From Bacilli bacterium (GTDB lineage Bacteria; Bacillota_I; Bacilli_A; RF39; UBA660): DNA of 36,255 nucleotides. Where the stretch lies: positions 1 to 36,255 of the forward strand of contig JAFWGF010000012.1 of assembly GCA_017512495.1 (NCBI GenBank). Reading direction: 5' to 3'. Under the pieces are notes generated by a model that saw only the letters and a program-made list of their open reading frames with translations, did no database searches and was not told the origin of the DNA. A program made the position numbers and the translations under genes. Numbering within the stretch: the stretch's first letter is position 1; each line of letters starts with the position of its first letter. Below are positions 2,375-35,132 of the stretch, piece by piece.

Positions 2375-2401
2375 CAAAAAAAGTCAAGCTATTCTTGACT
2401 T
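2375..2401 (-). terminator. terminator of surface-protein copy C
   Basis: Perfect stem AAGTCAAG / CTTGACTT (2381-2388 and 2394-2401) with a 5-nt loop, followed on the minus strand by a T run (plus-strand A run 2375-2382). It abuts the stop codon of the gene at 2401-3699. Confidence 0.8.
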
Positions 2402-3699
2402 TAACCAATTCTAAAAGCAGGTGATATATAATTAGTAACATCAGCAGTACTATCGCCCCAATGACCAGTATCATTTACTCTCATAAAATCATCTTTATCA
2501 TCATTGTCAGCTGTACGTAACCACCAATTCTTAGTATTGCCATTATACTTCTTTATAGCTCCATTATTACTGTCTGTTCTAATTCCTTGAGCTTTATAAT
2601 AATCTAGTTGTCTAGTTTCTACTTCTGCCGTATCTCTATCACAAACATTAGTTGTTCCTTCTTTTCCCCAAACTTCTTTTGTTGATAAAAGATATAGTTT
2701 ATCAGTAGTTATAAAATTACTCTCTCCAGATTTTTTTCCATGACCTGATACTACATAAGTATCAATAATATTATTTCTAATAATTTCTGGTATCAAATTA
2801 TACACTGTACTATTTAAATAAGTACGAAGTTCAGCAGCTTCCCAACCACCTTCATTAGTTTCAGAAGAATTCATTTTTTGTTCATCAATAATATCTGCAA
2901 ATTCAAAGACTATTCCACAAGCTGTTTGAGAAAAGCCACTATTTGAACACTCACTCGGAGTTGATGTATTAGCAATTCTTAATGTATGTACTCCTAATGT
3001 TCCCAAATTAACTTCTTTACTAGCTCCGACAGTGTAATAATCCGGTATTCTATTAGTCTTTATATTTTCAATAATATTTTCCCATGATTCATTAGAAAAA
3101 GAATGTTCAACATCAATGGCTGTTTCATCTGCTTGTGTATAAGTCATTGTAAACTCAATAGTAAATTGTTGATCTTCTGTTGGATAATTTGTTTTATCAG
3201 AGTTTTCTATATAACTAAATCTTACTTTTATGGTTTCTGATGTTCCTTGCTTTAATTCTTGTTTATTTTCTAAAGAAGTTCCATCACTATAGACAATTGT
3301 ATATTCTAAGTATTTCTTTTGCGCCGTAGTTAGCGTTGGACTAATAGAAAAACTATCTATCATTGCATCCATTGTCCCTTGATTTGTTACATCTACTGTG
3401 AATTCATAAAAATCGTTTGGTTCATCTAGAGTAGCTGCGAATGTTACTGTTGTTGGGTCTGTTATTGAAGCTGCTGTTGTAGCTGTTACACTACCAGTAG
3501 TTACATTTAAATTAGTAAAATGTACATCCCATCTAGCTGCTGTTACATTAGCTGTTCCATTGATATTTAAATTACTCTTTATATAAGAATAACCTATTCC
3601 TGTACTCGCAAGCACTATGAAAAGAAGAATATAAATAATATTCATTTTCTTTTGAAATCTTATTCTCTTATCAAATTTTAATCTTCTTTTAAACGCCAT
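2401..3699 (-). CDS. SipW-type surface protein with DUF6273-like C-terminal domain, copy C
   Basis: 432 aa. Residues 1-191 are the module shared with copies A and B (basic start, hydrophobic segment about 20-36, GIGYSYIKSNLNINGTA, Ig-like region). Residues about 198-432 form a domain that resembles DUF6273: 'SWENII', 'GTLGVHTLRIAN', 'GGWEAAELRTYLN', 'DKLYLLSTKEVWG', and the end 'WWLRTAD...YISPAFRIG'. This domain is clearly homologous to the C-terminus of the protein at 29948-31261. Domains ending in WWLR...PAF are often variants of a C-type-lectin/sulfatase-modifying-like fold; that is family knowledge recalled, not tested here. The gene has its own terminator at 2375-2401 and starts 49 bases left of the rbfA stop codon. 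Confidence 0.82.
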   Translation of the reverse strand: MAFKRRLKFDKRIRFQKKMNIIYILLFIVLASTGIGYSYIKSNLNINGTANVTAARWDVHFTNLNVTTGSVTATTAASITDPTTVTFAATLDEPNDFYEFTVDVTNQGTMDAMIDSFSISPTLTTAQKKYLEYTIVYSDGTSLENKQELKQGTSETIKVRFSYIENSDKTNYPTEDQQFTIEFTMTYTQADETAIDVEHSFSNESWENIIENIKTNRIPDYYTVGASKEVNLGTLGVHTLRIANTSTPSECSNSGFSQTACGIVFEFADIIDEQKMNSSETNEGGWEAAELRTYLNSTVYNLIPEIIRNNIIDTYVVSGHGKKSGESNFITTDKLYLLSTKEVWGKEGTTNVCDRDTAEVETRQLDYYKAQGIRTDSNNGAIKKYNGNTKNWWLRTADNDDKDDFMRVNDTGHWGDSTADVTNYISPAFRIG

Positions 3700-29947: not shown

Positions 29948-31261
29948 TTAACCAATTCGGAAAGCTGGAGAAACCCCCATAGTACCATTAGAACTGTTGT
30001 GGACCCAGTCACCAAAGTTGGTCACAGTGCAGAAACTGTAATTATTGTTAGAATTAGCCGAGCGCATCCACCAATAAGAAATTGAACCATTATTCAGTTT
30101 AATTGCTCCTGAGTAATTACTTGTTGTAACATTTTGTGAACTATAATAATCTAATTGTCTTGTATTATTATATGCTGTATCATAGCTATCTATTCCACTA
30201 TTTGTATTTCCATCTACATCTTCCCATACTTCATGTGTTGATAACAAATATATTTTATCTATTGATGTGAAGTTTGTCTCTCCACTTGTTGATCCATGTC
30301 CTGATACTACTGTTGTATTGATTATTCCGCTTTTTAATTCAGATGGCAATGCATTATATATATCACTATTTACATATGTCCTCATCTCACTTGCTGGCCA
30401 TCCTCCTATATTTCTATATCCTGTTGTTGCACCTGAAGTATATGGATTCATTATATGAGTTGTGATTATATCTACAAACTCTAAGACAAATCCACATGCT
30501 GTTTGTGAGGATCCTGTTGTAGAGCATTCTGCTGGTGTACTTTTATTGGCTATACGAAGTGTATGTGTTCCTAAGCTTCCCATATCTACTGTCTTTGTAT
30601 CTCCTACATTATAATTACTTGTATTACCTGAACGAACATTAGCAATTATTGTTTCCCATGAATCCAATTCAAACTGACTTAGATGTATTACTTCAGTTGC
30701 AGCATCAGTTGCTTGTCTATATGTTACTGTAAATTGAAATGGTAAACTTTGATTTGTTGCTGGTATTTGATTTAATTCTATATCATCTTTATATTTTATT
30801 CTTACTTTGTATGTTTCTGTTGTTCCTGCAGCTAGTAATTGATTTACTGCTAGTGGTACTCCATCAGAATAAGTTACTGTATATTCTAAATAATCTGGTA
30901 GATTGGTTATTGTTGCCCCATTAAGCTTAGATGTAATGCTGTCTATCATTCCATCTATTGTACCTGAGTTAACTGCATCTACTGTGAACTCATAATAATC
31001 TCCTGGTATATTTAAGACTACTGAATATGTTACTGTAGTCTGAGCACTATTAATAGTTGGTGTAGATGCACTTACTGATCCTTCTTTTACTTGTACATTT
31101 GCCCAATGAATATTCCATGTAGGTGCTCCCATATTAGCTGTTCCATTGATATTTAAATTACTTTGGATGAGAGCATATCCTATTCCTAGTATGAGAATTA
31201 AATTTACTATGATTGATACTACACTTTGTTTTTTTCTTCTAGCAAATTTTCTTCTTCTCAT
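29948..31261 (-). CDS. SipW-type surface protein with DUF6273-like domain and atypical 3' end
   Basis: 437 aa from the ATG at 31259-31261, behind GGAGGGAT; an upstream extension to 31312 is not supported by a ribosome site. A basic start (MRRRKFARRKKQ), a hydrophobic segment and GIGYALIQSNLNINGTA match the tandem family at the left end, followed by an Ig-like region and a DUF6273-like C-terminal domain ('GSLGTHTLRIANKSTPAEC', 'GGWPASEMRTYVN', 'DKIYLLSTHEVW', 'WWMRSAN...GVSPAFRIG'). It aligns over its full length with copy C. The last ~120 bases differ sharply from the rest in composition (see the separate entry). It interrupts the space between yqeY and yqfC. Confidence 0.82.
   Translation of the reverse strand: MRRRKFARRKKQSVVSIIVNLILILGIGYALIQSNLNINGTANMGAPTWNIHWANVQVKEGSVSASTPTINSAQTTVTYSVVLNIPGDYYEFTVDAVNSGTIDGMIDSITSKLNGATITNLPDYLEYTVTYSDGVPLAVNQLLAAGTTETYKVRIKYKDDIELNQIPATNQSLPFQFTVTYRQATDAATEVIHLSQFELDSWETIIANVRSGNTSNYNVGDTKTVDMGSLGTHTLRIANKSTPAECSTTGSSQTACGFVLEFVDIITTHIMNPYTSGATTGYRNIGGWPASEMRTYVNSDIYNALPSELKSGIINTTVVSGHGSTSGETNFTSIDKIYLLSTHEVWEDVDGNTNSGIDSYDTAYNNTRQLDYYSSQNVTTSNYSGAIKLNNGSISYWWMRSANSNNNYSFCTVTNFGDWVHNSSNGTMGVSPAFRIG
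29951..30070 (-). other. Candidate diversity-generating retroelement variable region
   Basis: The last ~40 codons of the surface-protein gene. By hand count, 54 of these 120 bases are G or C (45%), against 32 of the next 120 (27%) in the same gene. Codons ending in C are frequent (CGC, AAC, TAC, TTC, TGC, ACC, GAC, GTC, CAC), which is rare elsewhere in the window. The encoded stretch is Asn/Ser-rich between conserved WWMRSA and GVSPAFRI. NNC codons at the 3' end of a lectin-like fold gene are the mark of adenine mutagenesis. No template repeat or reverse transcriptase is in the window. Confidence 0.45.
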
Positions 31262-31300
31262 ACTATCCCTCCTATTATAATTATACATTTTTTTGTAATA

Positions 31301-31324
31301 AAAAAAAAGCATCTTTTGATGCTT
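31301..31324 (-). terminator. Terminator of yqeY
   Basis: AAGCATC / GATGCTT stem (31307-31313 and 31318-31324) with loop TTTT, followed on the minus strand by eight T. Confidence 0.85.
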
Positions 31325-31760
31325 ATTGTAATTTTTCTTTAATAATATTAGATACAGTTTTCATATCAGCTTTACCTTTTAATTTAGCATTAGCTTCTTT
31401 CATTACTCTACCCATATCTTTTTGTCCTTCAGGTTTTACTTCGGCAAAGATTTCATCAATTACCTTTAATACTTCTTCTTCTGATAATTGTTCAGGTAAA
31501 TATTTCATTAAGATATCTATTTCTGCTTGAGTTTGATCTATTAAATCTTGTCTATTACCTTTTTCAAATTCAACAATAGATTCTTTTCTCATCTTAATTT
31601 GTCTACTAACAACTTCGATTAATAATTCATCATTGATTTCTTTTTTATGATCAATTTGTTCTTGTTTTAAACCAGCTTTTACAGTTCTTATAACAGTTAA
31701 TCTTTCTTTTTCATGATTCTTCATTGCTTCGATCATATCTTTTTCTAATTGTTCTACCAT
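31323..31760 (-). CDS. yqeY: GatB/YqeY domain protein
   Basis: 145 aa. The whole protein is the GatB/YqeY domain: 'LEKDMIEAMKNHEKERLTVIRTVKAGLKQEQID' at the start, 'EIDILMKYLPEQLSEEE' in the middle and 'KDMGRVMKEANAKLKGKADMKTVSNIIKEKL' at the end. It resembles the tail domain of GatB, which binds tRNA, but its own role is not settled. It lies next to rpsU, as in Bacillus. Confidence 0.93.
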   Translation of the reverse strand: MVEQLEKDMIEAMKNHEKERLTVIRTVKAGLKQEQIDHKKEINDELLIEVVSRQIKMRKESIVEFEKGNRQDLIDQTQAEIDILMKYLPEQLSEEEVLKVIDEIFAEVKPEGQKDMGRVMKEANAKLKGKADMKTVSNIIKEKLQ

Positions 31761-31835: not shown

Positions 31836-32039
31836 TTAATAATCTCTACTACGATTTGAGCGTTCTCTTTTTCTAGAATTCTTTATTCCTTCTTTTTTAG
31901 CTGCTCTTCTTCTTACTCCTGGCTTATCATAAGCTTCTCTCTTTTTCCACTCAGAAGGGACACCATCTCTTGCGACTTTTTGTTTAAATTTTCTTAAAGC
32001 TTGATCAAGATTTCCTCTTACAGTAACTTTAGTTGCCAC
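31836..32039 (-). CDS. rpsU: 30S ribosomal protein S21
   Basis: 67 aa with the S21 pattern 'LDQALRKFKQKVARDGVPSEWKKREAYDKPGVRRRAAKKEG' and a basic tail. It starts at GTG (32037-32039) behind a strong GGGAGGG site. It has its own promoter (32074-32102) although the bacteriocin operon ends just upstream. Confidence 0.96.
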   Translation of the reverse strand: MATKVTVRGNLDQALRKFKQKVARDGVPSEWKKREAYDKPGVRRRAAKKEGIKNSRKRERSNRSRDY

Positions 32040-32073: not shown

Positions 32074-32102
32074 ATTATAACAAAAGATTAGTCAATTTTC
32101 AA
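32074..32102 (-). promoter_or_regulatory. Promoter of rpsU
   Basis: On the minus strand, -35 TTGAAA (32097-32102), 17-base spacer, -10 TATAAT (32074-32079) with TG extension (TGTTATAAT). Confidence 0.65.
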
Positions 32103-32136: not shown

Positions 32137-32310
32137 TTAGTCTAACGGACACATTTTATTTTCACTTATTCTTCTAATACCAGAACCAACACTATAACCA
32201 GCATCTCTTAATAAATTAATCACATTAACAATTGCATTTATAATTGGACCATTCACAGTAGTATTACCTCCAGTTATATTATCAAGTTTATCATCACTAA
32301 TTTTATTCAT
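32137..32310 (-). CDS. Double-glycine bacteriocin precursor peptide 2
   Basis: 57 aa from the ATG at 32308-32310, behind GGAGG nine bases upstream; a longer frame reading out to 32394 lies in the other precursor gene. The leader MNKISDDKLDNITGG (15 residues) ends in Gly-Gly, the cut site for C39 peptidases. The predicted mature peptide has 42 residues, with an amphipathic middle (NGPIINAIVNVINLLRDAG), a G38-x3-G42 motif and one Cys near the end. GxxxG motifs are typical of class IIb two-peptide bacteriocins. It overlaps the first precursor gene by 4 bases (ATGA). No immunity gene follows. Confidence 0.75.
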   Translation of the reverse strand: MNKISDDKLDNITGGNTTVNGPIINAIVNVINLLRDAGYSVGSGIRRISENKMCPLD

Positions 32311-32462
32311 GCTTTGCAACCTCCAGGATTTACCATGCCGTCTATTAAACCCGCCAAGAATATAACTATAGAGGCAATAGCTATACCAGTCCAAACAGTT
32401 ACTGTTGCGCCACCTTTTATTTTCTCTAAATTATCATCACTTATTTTACTAATTCTAATCAC
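32307..32462 (-). CDS. Double-glycine bacteriocin precursor peptide 1 (start uncertain)
   Basis: 51 aa if read from the GTG at 32460-32462. The leader ends ISDDNLEKIKGG and is clearly related to that of peptide 2. The mature part of 33 residues is strongly hydrophobic (WTGIAIASIVIFLAGLIDG) with G38-x3-G42 and ends PGGCKA. The GTG has no good ribosome site, whereas AAGGTGAT stands at proper spacing before an ATT at 32451-32453. Starting there gives a 15-residue leader that lines up exactly with peptide 2. It overlaps both neighbouring genes, so expression is coupled. Together with peptide 2 it may form a two-peptide bacteriocin. Confidence 0.7.
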   Translation of the reverse strand: MIRISKISDDNLEKIKGGATVTVWTGIAIASIVIFLAGLIDGMVNPGGCKA

Positions 32463-32868
32463 CTTCCCAAATAATTTTAAATATTTTAATTAATAATATT
32501 CTTCCTTTTATAAAAACCAAATTCATTACATCATTTGTTTTAATCTTTTTATTTTTAAAGGGAAACTTTAATACTAGCTGGTAGTAATCTTTATTACCTT
32601 TATGCATTACTATTCCTCTATCTTCAATAATTTTATATTTTCTTTTAAAATCATTGAAAAACAATGTTTTATTACTATAGACAGTTTTTCTTTCTTCTTT
32701 GTCTACTACTACTAAAACCAAATCTTTTTTTATTACCAATCCAGTAATTTTAGAATACTCATTTATCTTAAAAGTATTTAGAAAAACAATAACTATTACC
32801 TCTACAATTAATACTACTAATACTAAAAAAGTAATTAATTCTTTTTTTTCATAATTTCTAACTTTCAT
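32455..32868 (-). CDS. Small membrane accessory protein of the bacteriocin exporter
   Basis: 137 aa with one membrane span (~11-31) and a basic outer domain rich in beta strands. The stretch 'KFPFKNKKIKTNDVMNLVFIKGRILLIKIFKIIWE' recalls the C-terminal barrel of HlyD/LcnD-type adaptor proteins, but the long coiled-coil hairpin of that family is absent. Its frame overlaps the ABC exporter by 11 bases and the first precursor gene by 8. A helper in secretion is inferred from position and topology; immunity is the alternative. Confidence 0.6.
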   Translation of the reverse strand: MKVRNYEKKELITFLVLVVLIVEVIVIVFLNTFKINEYSKITGLVIKKDLVLVVVDKEERKTVYSNKTLFFNDFKRKYKIIEDRGIVMHKGNKDYYQLVLKFPFKNKKIKTNDVMNLVFIKGRILLIKIFKIIWEGD

Positions 32869-34930
32869 GAATTATTCCTTTATCTAATTTTAAAACTCGA
32901 TCAAATACTTTCTTATTATTAAAACGATGCGATATAACTATTATTGTTTTATCTTGTAAATACTTAAAGATGTTTTCTAATATTTTTTTCTCTCTACTAA
33001 TATCAATTTGAGTTAATGCTTCATCAAAAATATAAATATTACTTTTTTTTATAATACTCCTTGCTAAAATTATTCTTTGTCTTTCTCCGTTACTAAAATT
33101 AAAACCATTTTCTTCAACTAAAGCATCATATCCATTACCAATATTTTTAACAATATCATCTACTAAACATACTTTACAAATTTCATTAAACTCTTCTTCA
33201 CTATAATCTTTATACAATAAAATATTATTTCTAATTGTATCTGTAAATAAATATTCATTACTAGTTACATAAGTAATATTTGATCTAATATTTTCTAAAT
33301 GATAATGGTTTATATCAATACCAGCTATTTTAATCTTATTAAAATCTACTTCAACATATCTTAAAAGCATTTTCATTAAAGTACTTTTACCACTACCACT
33401 TTCTCCACTTAGTAATATTTTTTCTCCTTGTTTTATTTCTAAATTTAAATCTTTAAACAAATATTTACTACCCATCTTATAACTCAAATTATTATAATTA
33501 ATATTACCTATTAATGTAAATGTTAAATAAAAATAATTGTTTTTAAAATTATCTCTATTAATCATAAAAATTTCTTCAACTCTATTCAAAGCTACTTTAT
33601 ATGAATTATATTCTTCTAAAATACTTATCAAGTTATAAAAACTATTATTATAATATGAAAAGAAAAGTTGATATACAATTAAATTATTTAGAGGTAAAAA
33701 TCCCTTTACAACATGATAAGATCCTAAGCCAAAAATTATTAATAAAGAAATATCATTTATAATATTCTTATTAAAAGTATATTTTTCTAAAAGTAAATTA
33801 TAAGAATAAATAGACTCTAAAAAAGATTTATAATTAAGTGAAAATTTGTCAATTAATCTCTTTTCTAAGTGACTACCTTTAACAGTATCAACATTACTTA
33901 TTCCTTGAATTAAATATGAATTAATTATATCTTCTTTATTACTAATATTCTTAATTAATTTTCTTTTTTGGGGATTTATTAAAAATTGATAGATTATTAA
34001 ACTAATAGTAGAAATAATAAGATATATAGTCATCTTTTTATTGTAATTAAACATTATAATTGTAAAAATTATGATACTTATTAAATCAGTAGAAATAATG
34101 CAGAAGAATTTATTAATAAAATTACGGATAGTATTTAAATCTTTGAATCTAGAAACAACTTCTCCAGTAGTTCTATTTTTATAATATAAATATGGAAGTA
34201 AAAGTAATTGTTTATAAGTGTTAGTTGTTACTTCATTATCAAATAATATTATCCATTTACTAAGTAGTATATTTCTCAGTAAATTATTTATATTTTTAAG
34301 TAGATATAAAATAATCATAATAGTAGTTATATAGTATATATTTTTTGTTAAATCATAATTAATAGAGTATTCTAAAAGATATTTAAAATGAAAAGAAGTA
34401 TGTATGTTTAAAACAAAAAATGATAATGTTAAAAATACTATGATGAATAATAATTTTTTATTCATTTTAAATAATTCAATAATATTTTTATAAATTATAT
34501 TTCTCTTCTGCATTATTGGTAATTTTTTAATAGGCTTTAAAAATATATAATTATTACTTGATAATAAATTAAACTCCGCAATTGAGATTATTTTCTTTCC
34601 TTTACTAGGATCCATTAAAGTTACTTGACTTTTCTTTTTATTAATTTCATATAAAACAACAAAATGTTTATAACTTTTATTCACAATAAAATGGGCTATA
34701 CAGGGTAAGTTATTTACTTCTATATTTTCTATTTTTCCTGAAAGACCTATTGCTTCAAAACCAATTATTTTTGCCCCTTCAATTAAATTGTAAAAAGAAA
34801 CTCCATCTTTAGTAGTATTTGTTATTTCTCTTAAGTATTCCTTAGATACTTCTCCACCATAAAATCTAATAATAGATAAGAGACAGCAAATTCCACAATC
34901 TTTAATACCATCCTGAAGAACTACTTTCAC
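32858..34930 (-). CDS. Peptidase C39-containing ABC bacteriocin exporter
   Basis: 690 aa. Residues 1-~130 are a C39 cysteine peptidase: Q6, catalytic C12 in 'KDCGICCL', H89 in 'YKHFVVLYE' and D107 in 'LMDPSKG'. About six membrane spans follow (~150-430), then the ATPase domain with Walker A 'GESGSGKST', signature 'FSNGERQR' (a variant of LSGGQ), Walker B 'IYIFDEALTQ' and the 'VISHR' His loop. Such transporters cut double-glycine leaders and export the peptide. The start is GTG (34928-34930), 14 bases from GGAGG, with a duplicated GTGAAAGTA at 34922-34930 and 34937-34945. First gene of the bacteriocin operon. Confidence 0.92.
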   Translation of the reverse strand: MKVVLQDGIKDCGICCLLSIIRFYGGEVSKEYLREITNTTKDGVSFYNLIEGAKIIGFEAIGLSGKIENIEVNNLPCIAHFIVNKSYKHFVVLYEINKKKSQVTLMDPSKGKKIISIAEFNLLSSNNYIFLKPIKKLPIMQKRNIIYKNIIELFKMNKKLLFIIVFLTLSFFVLNIHTSFHFKYLLEYSINYDLTKNIYYITTIMIILYLLKNINNLLRNILLSKWIILFDNEVTTNTYKQLLLLPYLYYKNRTTGEVVSRFKDLNTIRNFINKFFCIISTDLISIIIFTIIMFNYNKKMTIYLIISTISLIIYQFLINPQKRKLIKNISNKEDIINSYLIQGISNVDTVKGSHLEKRLIDKFSLNYKSFLESIYSYNLLLEKYTFNKNIINDISLLIIFGLGSYHVVKGFLPLNNLIVYQLFFSYYNNSFYNLISILEEYNSYKVALNRVEEIFMINRDNFKNNYFYLTFTLIGNINYNNLSYKMGSKYLFKDLNLEIKQGEKILLSGESGSGKSTLMKMLLRYVEVDFNKIKIAGIDINHYHLENIRSNITYVTSNEYLFTDTIRNNILLYKDYSEEEFNEICKVCLVDDIVKNIGNGYDALVEENGFNFSNGERQRIILARSIIKKSNIYIFDEALTQIDISREKKILENIFKYLQDKTIIVISHRFNNKKVFDRVLKLDKGIIHES

Positions 34931-34990
34931 TTATAATACTTTCACCTCCTATATATATCTTTCGAAAAAATTTTCATTTATAACAAAAAA

Positions 34991-35099
34991 GCACAAAAAA
35001 AGAAGAGAAAAATTTCTCCTCTTGGGATAAATACTCTAAACCAAACGCGTGATAATTGATTAGAAATAAGAAAAAAACAAGTTTTTCTAATTATCCCAA
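34991..35099 (-). ncRNA. Candidate small structured RNA upstream of the bacteriocin operon
   Basis: A promoter-terminator unit of about 105 bases without an ORF. Outer stem TTGGGATAA / TTATCCCAA (35091-35099 and 35022-35030) closes an inner hairpin TTAGAAA / TTTCTAA, then a strong terminator follows. It could be an independent small RNA or the terminated leader of the bacteriocin operon. I do not recognise a known riboswitch or Rfam class by eye. Confidence 0.45.
34995..35022 (-). terminator. Terminator upstream of the bacteriocin operon
   Basis: AGAAGAGAAA / TTTCTCCTCT stem (35001-35010 and 35013-35022, one wobble), with seven T following on the minus strand (plus-strand A run 34995-35001). 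Confidence 0.8.
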
Positions 35100-35103
35100 T
35101 TTC

Positions 35104-35132
35104 ATTTTATCACACATATAATATTAGAACAA
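35104..35132 (-). promoter_or_regulatory. Promoter of the small RNA/leader
   Basis: On the minus strand, -35 TTGTTC (35127-35132), 17-base spacer, -10 TAAAAT (35104-35109). It begins only a few bases behind the stop of the gene at 35136. Confidence 0.5.

Follow-up and report, generated by a model that had tools for sequence, protein, structure and literature searches.

A vertically inherited core operon in an order of uncultured Bacilli resembles class IIb two-peptide bacteriocin systems

Introduction

Class IIb bacteriocins, among them lactococcin G, plantaricin EF and the lactobin A/cerein 7B type (TIGR03949), derive from adjacent double-glycine precursors encoded with a C39 exporter, and their mature peptides are helical, membrane-type molecules that both carry a GxxxG motif. 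Such bacteriocin-like pairs are normally accessory and strain-variable, and the known two-peptide clusters comprise at least five genes, including one dedicated to immunity (PMC6957408). A disulfide-containing group of two-peptide systems with GG leaders (gallocin A, thermophilin 13, brochocin C and ABP-118) has two cysteines per peptide, and intramolecular disulfide bonds have been shown in gallocin A; the classic pairs named in the same paper have no cysteine (PMC10100652).

A C39 exporter, an accessory protein and several GG peptides are also found together in the pneumococcal rtg, com and blp loci. The function of rtg is still debated. This locus, which contains genes for regulators and pheromones, varies strongly, with an intact exporter gene (rtgA) in 5% of strains and its peptide genes in ∼4 to 60% (PMC7018657). 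Other C39 exporters are connected with processes unrelated to bacteriocins. HetC, for example, has a role in cell differentiation in Nostoc (PMC10986499), and in Faecalibacterium the gene for the protein MAM adjoins that of a C39 exporter (PMC8836110).

Here we describe an operon from the order RF39 that was found in a contig of 36,255 nucleotides, referred to below as the window, and that had been described from its sequence as a compact class IIb-like cluster. It shares with class IIb systems the adjacent double-glycine precursors, the C39 exporter, and the GxxxG motif in both helical, membrane-type mature peptides, but it consists of only three or four genes, includes no dedicated immunity gene, and encodes peptides with a single invariant cysteine, a number that also sets it apart from the gallocin A group. 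Moreover, it is a core trait of a whole order rather than a strain-variable locus. The pneumococcal bacteriocin loci are patchy and variable, whereas this operon is near-universal, is under purifying selection, and, unlike rtg, has no linked regulator. Our survey of the literature on RF39-type bacteria, the coverage of which was incomplete, returned no paper on the operon, on its nature as an order-wide core system without an immunity gene, or on the structured RNA upstream of it. Neither the RNA nor the order-wide distribution formed part of the original prediction.

Results

The four genes lie on the minus strand in the order exporter, 137-aa protein, peptide 1, peptide 2, and overlap by 11, 8 and 4 bases (Table 1), exactly as first described. 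Both the gene order and the style of overlap are found again in relatives across genera. The gene for peptide 1, which had been pointed out as being only 51 codons long and easily missed, is real, and 37 of its sequences could be aligned. Chance GG open reading frames were ruled out as an explanation for the two precursors by the conservation of the motif in both peptide alignments and by its rarity in the window, where an LxxIxGG-type leader occurs in peptides 1 and 2 only among the 101 open reading frames of 30-110 aa. The operon is followed by rpsU, a conserved neighbour in most relatives. Several DUF6273-type paralogs are present at both ends of the window, and the copy between yqeY and yqfD is missing from that position in most relatives.

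Table 1. Positions of the operon, its neighbours and other features in the window
Feature	Position	Strand	Details
C39-peptidase ABC exporter (PCAT)	32858-34930	minus	GTG start, 690 aa, RBS AGGAGGTG at 34943-34950
Adaptor-like membrane protein	32455-32868	minus	ATG start, 137 aa
Peptide 1 precursor	32307-32462	minus	GTG start, 51 aa
Peptide 2 precursor	32137-32310	minus	ATG start, 57 aa
Promoter-like site for rpsU	32074-32102		strong; between peptide 2 and rpsU
rpsU (ribosomal protein S21)	31836-32039	minus	TIGR00030, 52.1 bits; first gene downstream of peptide 2
yqeY	31323-31760	minus	Pfam YqeY, 163.8 bits; downstream synteny, marks a stable chromosomal place
DUF6273-type paralog beside yqeY	29948-31312
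Other DUF6273-type paralogs	1-519, 1312-2322, 2401-3699
Candidate small structured RNA	34995-35099 (wider interval 34995-35105)	minus	∼100 nt, directly upstream of the exporter

The exporter has the make-up of a PCAT: a C39 domain (Pfam Peptidase_C39, 103.5 bits against a cut-off of 22) and the ABC membrane and ATPase domains (matches to ABC_membrane and ABC_tran), with the C39 residues Q6, C12, H89 and D107 and the nucleotide-binding motifs all intact. Against TIGR01193 it scores 333 bits, which is under the cut-off of 524 for that model. Because it is the sole C39 gene in the 1.37-Mb draft genome and both leaders carry L(-7), I(-4) and GG, both precursors are expected to be cut by it, and these sequence features make it almost certain that the C39 transporter cleaves and exports the peptides. 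In another family of the class, two loci (L143 and L144) have a C39-ABC exporter directly upstream of ybeY, a housekeeping place, and no GG peptide was seen behind either exporter.

Peptide 1 has a leader ending in NLEKIKGG and a neutral mature part of 33 aa, which is one long hydrophobic helix of near-pure membrane type with the GxxxG sequence GLIDG, an NPxxC end and a single cysteine. Peptide 2 has a leader ending in KLDNITGG and a mature part of 42 aa with a net charge of +1, an amphipathic helix containing GYSVG as its GxxxG, an RR pair, a CPLD end and again one cysteine. In alignments whose members were chosen by eye from the loci, a few divergent pairs being left out, the invariant columns were GG, F35, G38, G42, P46 and C49 for peptide 1 (37 sequences) and included GG, G38, G42, R47 and C54 for peptide 2 (43 sequences). 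The GxxxG motif and single cysteine that had been noted in both mature parts are not peculiar to the window, and every aligned homolog has a GG leader, the lack of which had been named beforehand as counter-evidence.

Several peptide 1 homologs from sister genera pass the class IIb model TIGR03949 (21.9-32.8 bits, cut-off 21.5), and some of them would thus already be annotated automatically as bacteriocins. The window's own peptides fall below the cut-offs of the class IIb models among the curated models of the Pfam and NCBIfam type; the only model that its peptide 2 passes is TIGR01847, which describes the leader (16.3 versus 15.7 bits). Among solved structures, the bacteriocin-type matches to the peptides, CtA and carnobacteriocin B2, cover the leader only and have weak E-values.

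A search for the gene set in related genomes, which had been proposed along with the original prediction, located the exporter in all 49 sampled sister genera (C39 family search), and in nearly every sister-genus locus whose contig continues, two GG peptides lie downstream of it. A 43-member profile of peptide 2 matched 111 of 117 genera of the order, with hits in 358 of the 385 genomes sampled (289 of the 305 of good quality). In other families of the class, a class-wide sample gave weak matches confined to the leader half. The locus is usually found directly upstream of rpsU-yqeY, and no copy of the operon was present in collections of plasmids, phages and viral contigs, the contig scans having been made with a genus-level profile of peptide 2; together, these two results rule out a mobile cluster. 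The named relatives are uncultured Bacilli, and several come from the gut or rumen of goat, sheep, deer and, judging by isolate names, rabbit. The draft contigs of six genomes (G019, G027, G031, G032, G037 and G008) break in or beside the operon, which may reflect strain mixtures at the locus or only short assemblies.

Absences were followed up in 15 genomes chosen because the peptide, the exporter or the adaptor had not been found in earlier searches. The neighbour yqeY was also missing from 9 of them. Three belong to the same genus and have a close yqeY match. In one of these (G022) peptide 2 is found beside yqeY, and in the other two the match lies close to where the contig stops. Many apparent absences are thus assembly gaps, and true absence from the negative genomes is mostly unsupported.

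Both peptides are under purifying selection. In close pairs, peptide 1 gave dN/dS values of 0.07-0.19 and peptide 2 a value of 0.09, which are rough because some pairs approach saturation at synonymous sites, and the mature parts of both peptides are conserved at least as much as their leaders. Within the genus, the exporter has a mean identity of 60%, peptide 1 of 53%, peptide 2 of 59% and yqeY of 78%, with the 137-aa protein, at 35%, the fastest-evolving of the four operon products. Distances between exporters parallel those between core genes nearby (Mantel r 0.71, with 0 of 2000 permutations as high). The operon is vertically inherited and core to the order.

A linked immunity gene is absent from the window's operon. 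There is no third small gene, and only 97 bases separate peptide 2 from rpsU, a gap that holds the promoter-like site for rpsU (Table 1), so that no room is left for an immunity gene after peptide 2. In same-genus loci, no extra gene recurs between the upstream neighbours and the exporter, and no dedicated immunity gene could be recognised in any locus inspected. The lack of such a gene, remarked on when the operon was first described, thus extends beyond this genome.

The structure of the 137-aa protein modelled with AlphaFold from 25 homologs (pLDDT 89.5) has one N-terminal membrane helix followed by an extracytoplasmic beta-barrel domain that ends in a short helix. This layout of anchor and then barrel resembles that of HlyD/MFP adaptors (HlyD, MexA, MacA and the LcnD/ComB type), but the model has neither the alpha-helical hairpin nor the lipoyl domain, in keeping with the view that the operon encodes no large HlyD-type adaptor. 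Its best fold matches are mostly adaptors, with Z 6.4-7.8 for MexA, AcrA, MacA and Spr0693, and the alignment with HlyD (7sgr_C, Z 6.1) spans 128 of 137 residues, membrane helix included. Since unrelated barrels reach similar Z values (6-8), the fold alone does not prove kinship with adaptors; the position of the gene and its exporter partner also agree with this assignment. The protein is therefore best read, on the strength of the model, as a putative HlyD-type accessory reduced to anchor and barrel. Searches by sequence gave no relative among PDB entries, and no Pfam or NCBIfam model scored above its cut-off.

A single-sequence search found homologs of the protein in 31 of 39 same-genus genomes and seven in other genera of the family, five of them weak. 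At the locus itself, the gene is missing from 17 of the ∼44 sister genera with full loci, all of which keep the peptides, and a profile that recovered all six held-out members of the family detected no full-length copy anywhere in these 17 genomes. Its presence is scattered on the exporter tree, where well-supported branches force at least five changes. We therefore conclude that the protein is neither essential for export nor a general immunity factor, and that the minimal conserved unit is the exporter plus the two peptides. Of the two tasks originally proposed for it, that of an adaptor is in line with the modelled structure, and that of general immunity is ruled out by the 17 genera that retain the peptides without it.

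The candidate RNA upstream of the exporter consists of an outer stem, a hairpin with the near-invariant loop UUAUCACGCGU, and an intrinsic terminator, and is preceded by an extended -10-like box. The outer stem covaries (GGGAUAA/UUAUCCC, GUGAAUAAA/UUUAUUCAC and GUGAUUAAA/UUUAAUCAC); the structure comes from single folds and a pattern search, a MAFFT alignment having given only 4 base pairs. The RNA is conserved in 21 same-genus or sister loci and in about two thirds of same-genus loci. Its pattern is single-copy: 20 of the 39 genomes of the genus have it once each, and in 18 of these 20 it precedes the exporter by ∼100 bases. No Rfam family matches the RNA. Because a separate promoter for the exporter seems to lie beyond the terminator, the RNA may be either a separate small RNA or an attenuator.

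Discussion

The near-universal presence of the operon, its stable chromosomal place and the lack of an immunity gene identify it as part of the core equipment of the lineage and not as a weapon that members may or may not carry. Our preferred explanation, in which our confidence is about even, is that this vertically inherited operon supplies a constitutive, membrane-acting peptide pair that is most likely directed against competitors, with self-protection that does not depend on a dedicated gene in the operon. According to this explanation, the C39 peptidase of the exporter would cut both precursors at GG and the pair would be exported. Where present, the 137-aa protein would accompany the exporter as a pared-down accessory of the HlyD type, and members of the order that lack it would export the peptides without it. 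The mature peptides of 33 and 42 residues are likely, by analogy with class IIb pairs, to associate as helices in the membrane through their invariant GxxxG faces, and their single C-terminal cysteines may lock the pair by a disulfide. Such a bond is a prediction; with only one cysteine per peptide, any disulfide must join separate molecules. The product would then be made by the whole lineage, and we favour outside competitors as its target over the producer's own envelope or kin. Protection of the producer would come from its own envelope or from an unlinked gene. The original reading of the operon as a two-peptide bacteriocin cluster is partly supported, in that it seems to act in the manner of class IIb systems, yet it is a core trait of the lineage. 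Counting against the preferred explanation, a role in signalling or one directed at the producer itself would account equally well for the purifying selection and the conservation across the order. Also against it are the lack of the dedicated immunity gene that bacteriocin loci normally carry (PMC6957408), the middling Z values of the adaptor's fold matches, and the failure of the window's own peptide 1 to reach any class IIb cut-off.

Such a role is the alternative that we take most seriously, although on balance we consider it doubtful. The pair would then be a physiological or signalling product, a heterodimeric exported peptide whose target is kin or the envelope of the producer itself, and not a weapon. 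Besides its conservation, the stable housekeeping locus of the operon, the failure to find an immunity gene in any inspected locus, the single-copy RNA linked to it, and the precedents for C39 exporters with roles outside bacteriocin production are all consistent with this possibility. However, no receptor, histidine kinase or regulator gene adjoins the operon, and two different membrane-helix peptides with paired GxxxG motifs would be unusual for a signal and are typical of class IIb systems. A bolder form of the idea, which seems to us rather unlikely, holds that the peptides form an order-defining, non-bacteriocin pair: a covalent heterodimer secreted by every member for housekeeping or kin-directed purposes, its expression coupled to the upstream RNA.

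Considerably less probable is a conventional class IIb cluster with the 137-aa protein as its immunity protein. The gene for this protein does lie between the exporter and the peptides, immunity proteins can be as small as the one-helix, 42-aa CbnZ (PMC6957408), and its rapid divergence relative to the exporter might be taken as a sign of such a function. The fold of the protein nevertheless matches transport adaptors, and 17 genera keep the peptides without it, with several losses on the exporter tree. Furthermore, conserved peptides alongside a diverging protein are the reverse of what tight matching between toxin and immunity protein should produce. A single effector peptide with the other exported alongside as its neutraliser or carrier, as might be imagined from the contrast between the near-pure membrane helix of peptide 1 and the amphipathic peptide 2 and from the gallocin A immunity peptide that mimics bacteriocin peptides (PMC10100652), is very improbable given that both have exporter leaders and an invariant GxxxG and cysteine and that they occur together in nearly every locus read.

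Either of the two main readings has consequences for a widespread, uncultured gut order with small genomes, in which a kind of system that is normally accessory has become core. If the pair kills, the whole order carries a weapon that its members must themselves withstand. If the pair has no such activity, peptides that are automatically annotated as bacteriocin form a family with another job. The peptides are short and, as far as seen, unmodified, so the killing and non-killing readings are both testable by synthesis. The repeatedly lost, trimmed adaptor provides in addition a natural experiment on whether C39 exporters need a HlyD partner.

Two further observations concern individual loci. 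Upstream of the exporter in six of them (L035, L042, L047, L059, L062 and L063), the recurrent neighbours include an apparent SpoIVFB-type site-2 protease, judged by eye, and with yqfD downstream, this places the operon among sporulation-related genes in these uncultured Bacilli. One locus (L137, genome G082) has two tandem peptide pairs ∼400-980 bases after the exporter, the second of which keeps GG and GxxxG and has no C-terminal cysteine, and it thus offers a natural contrast for the role of that residue.
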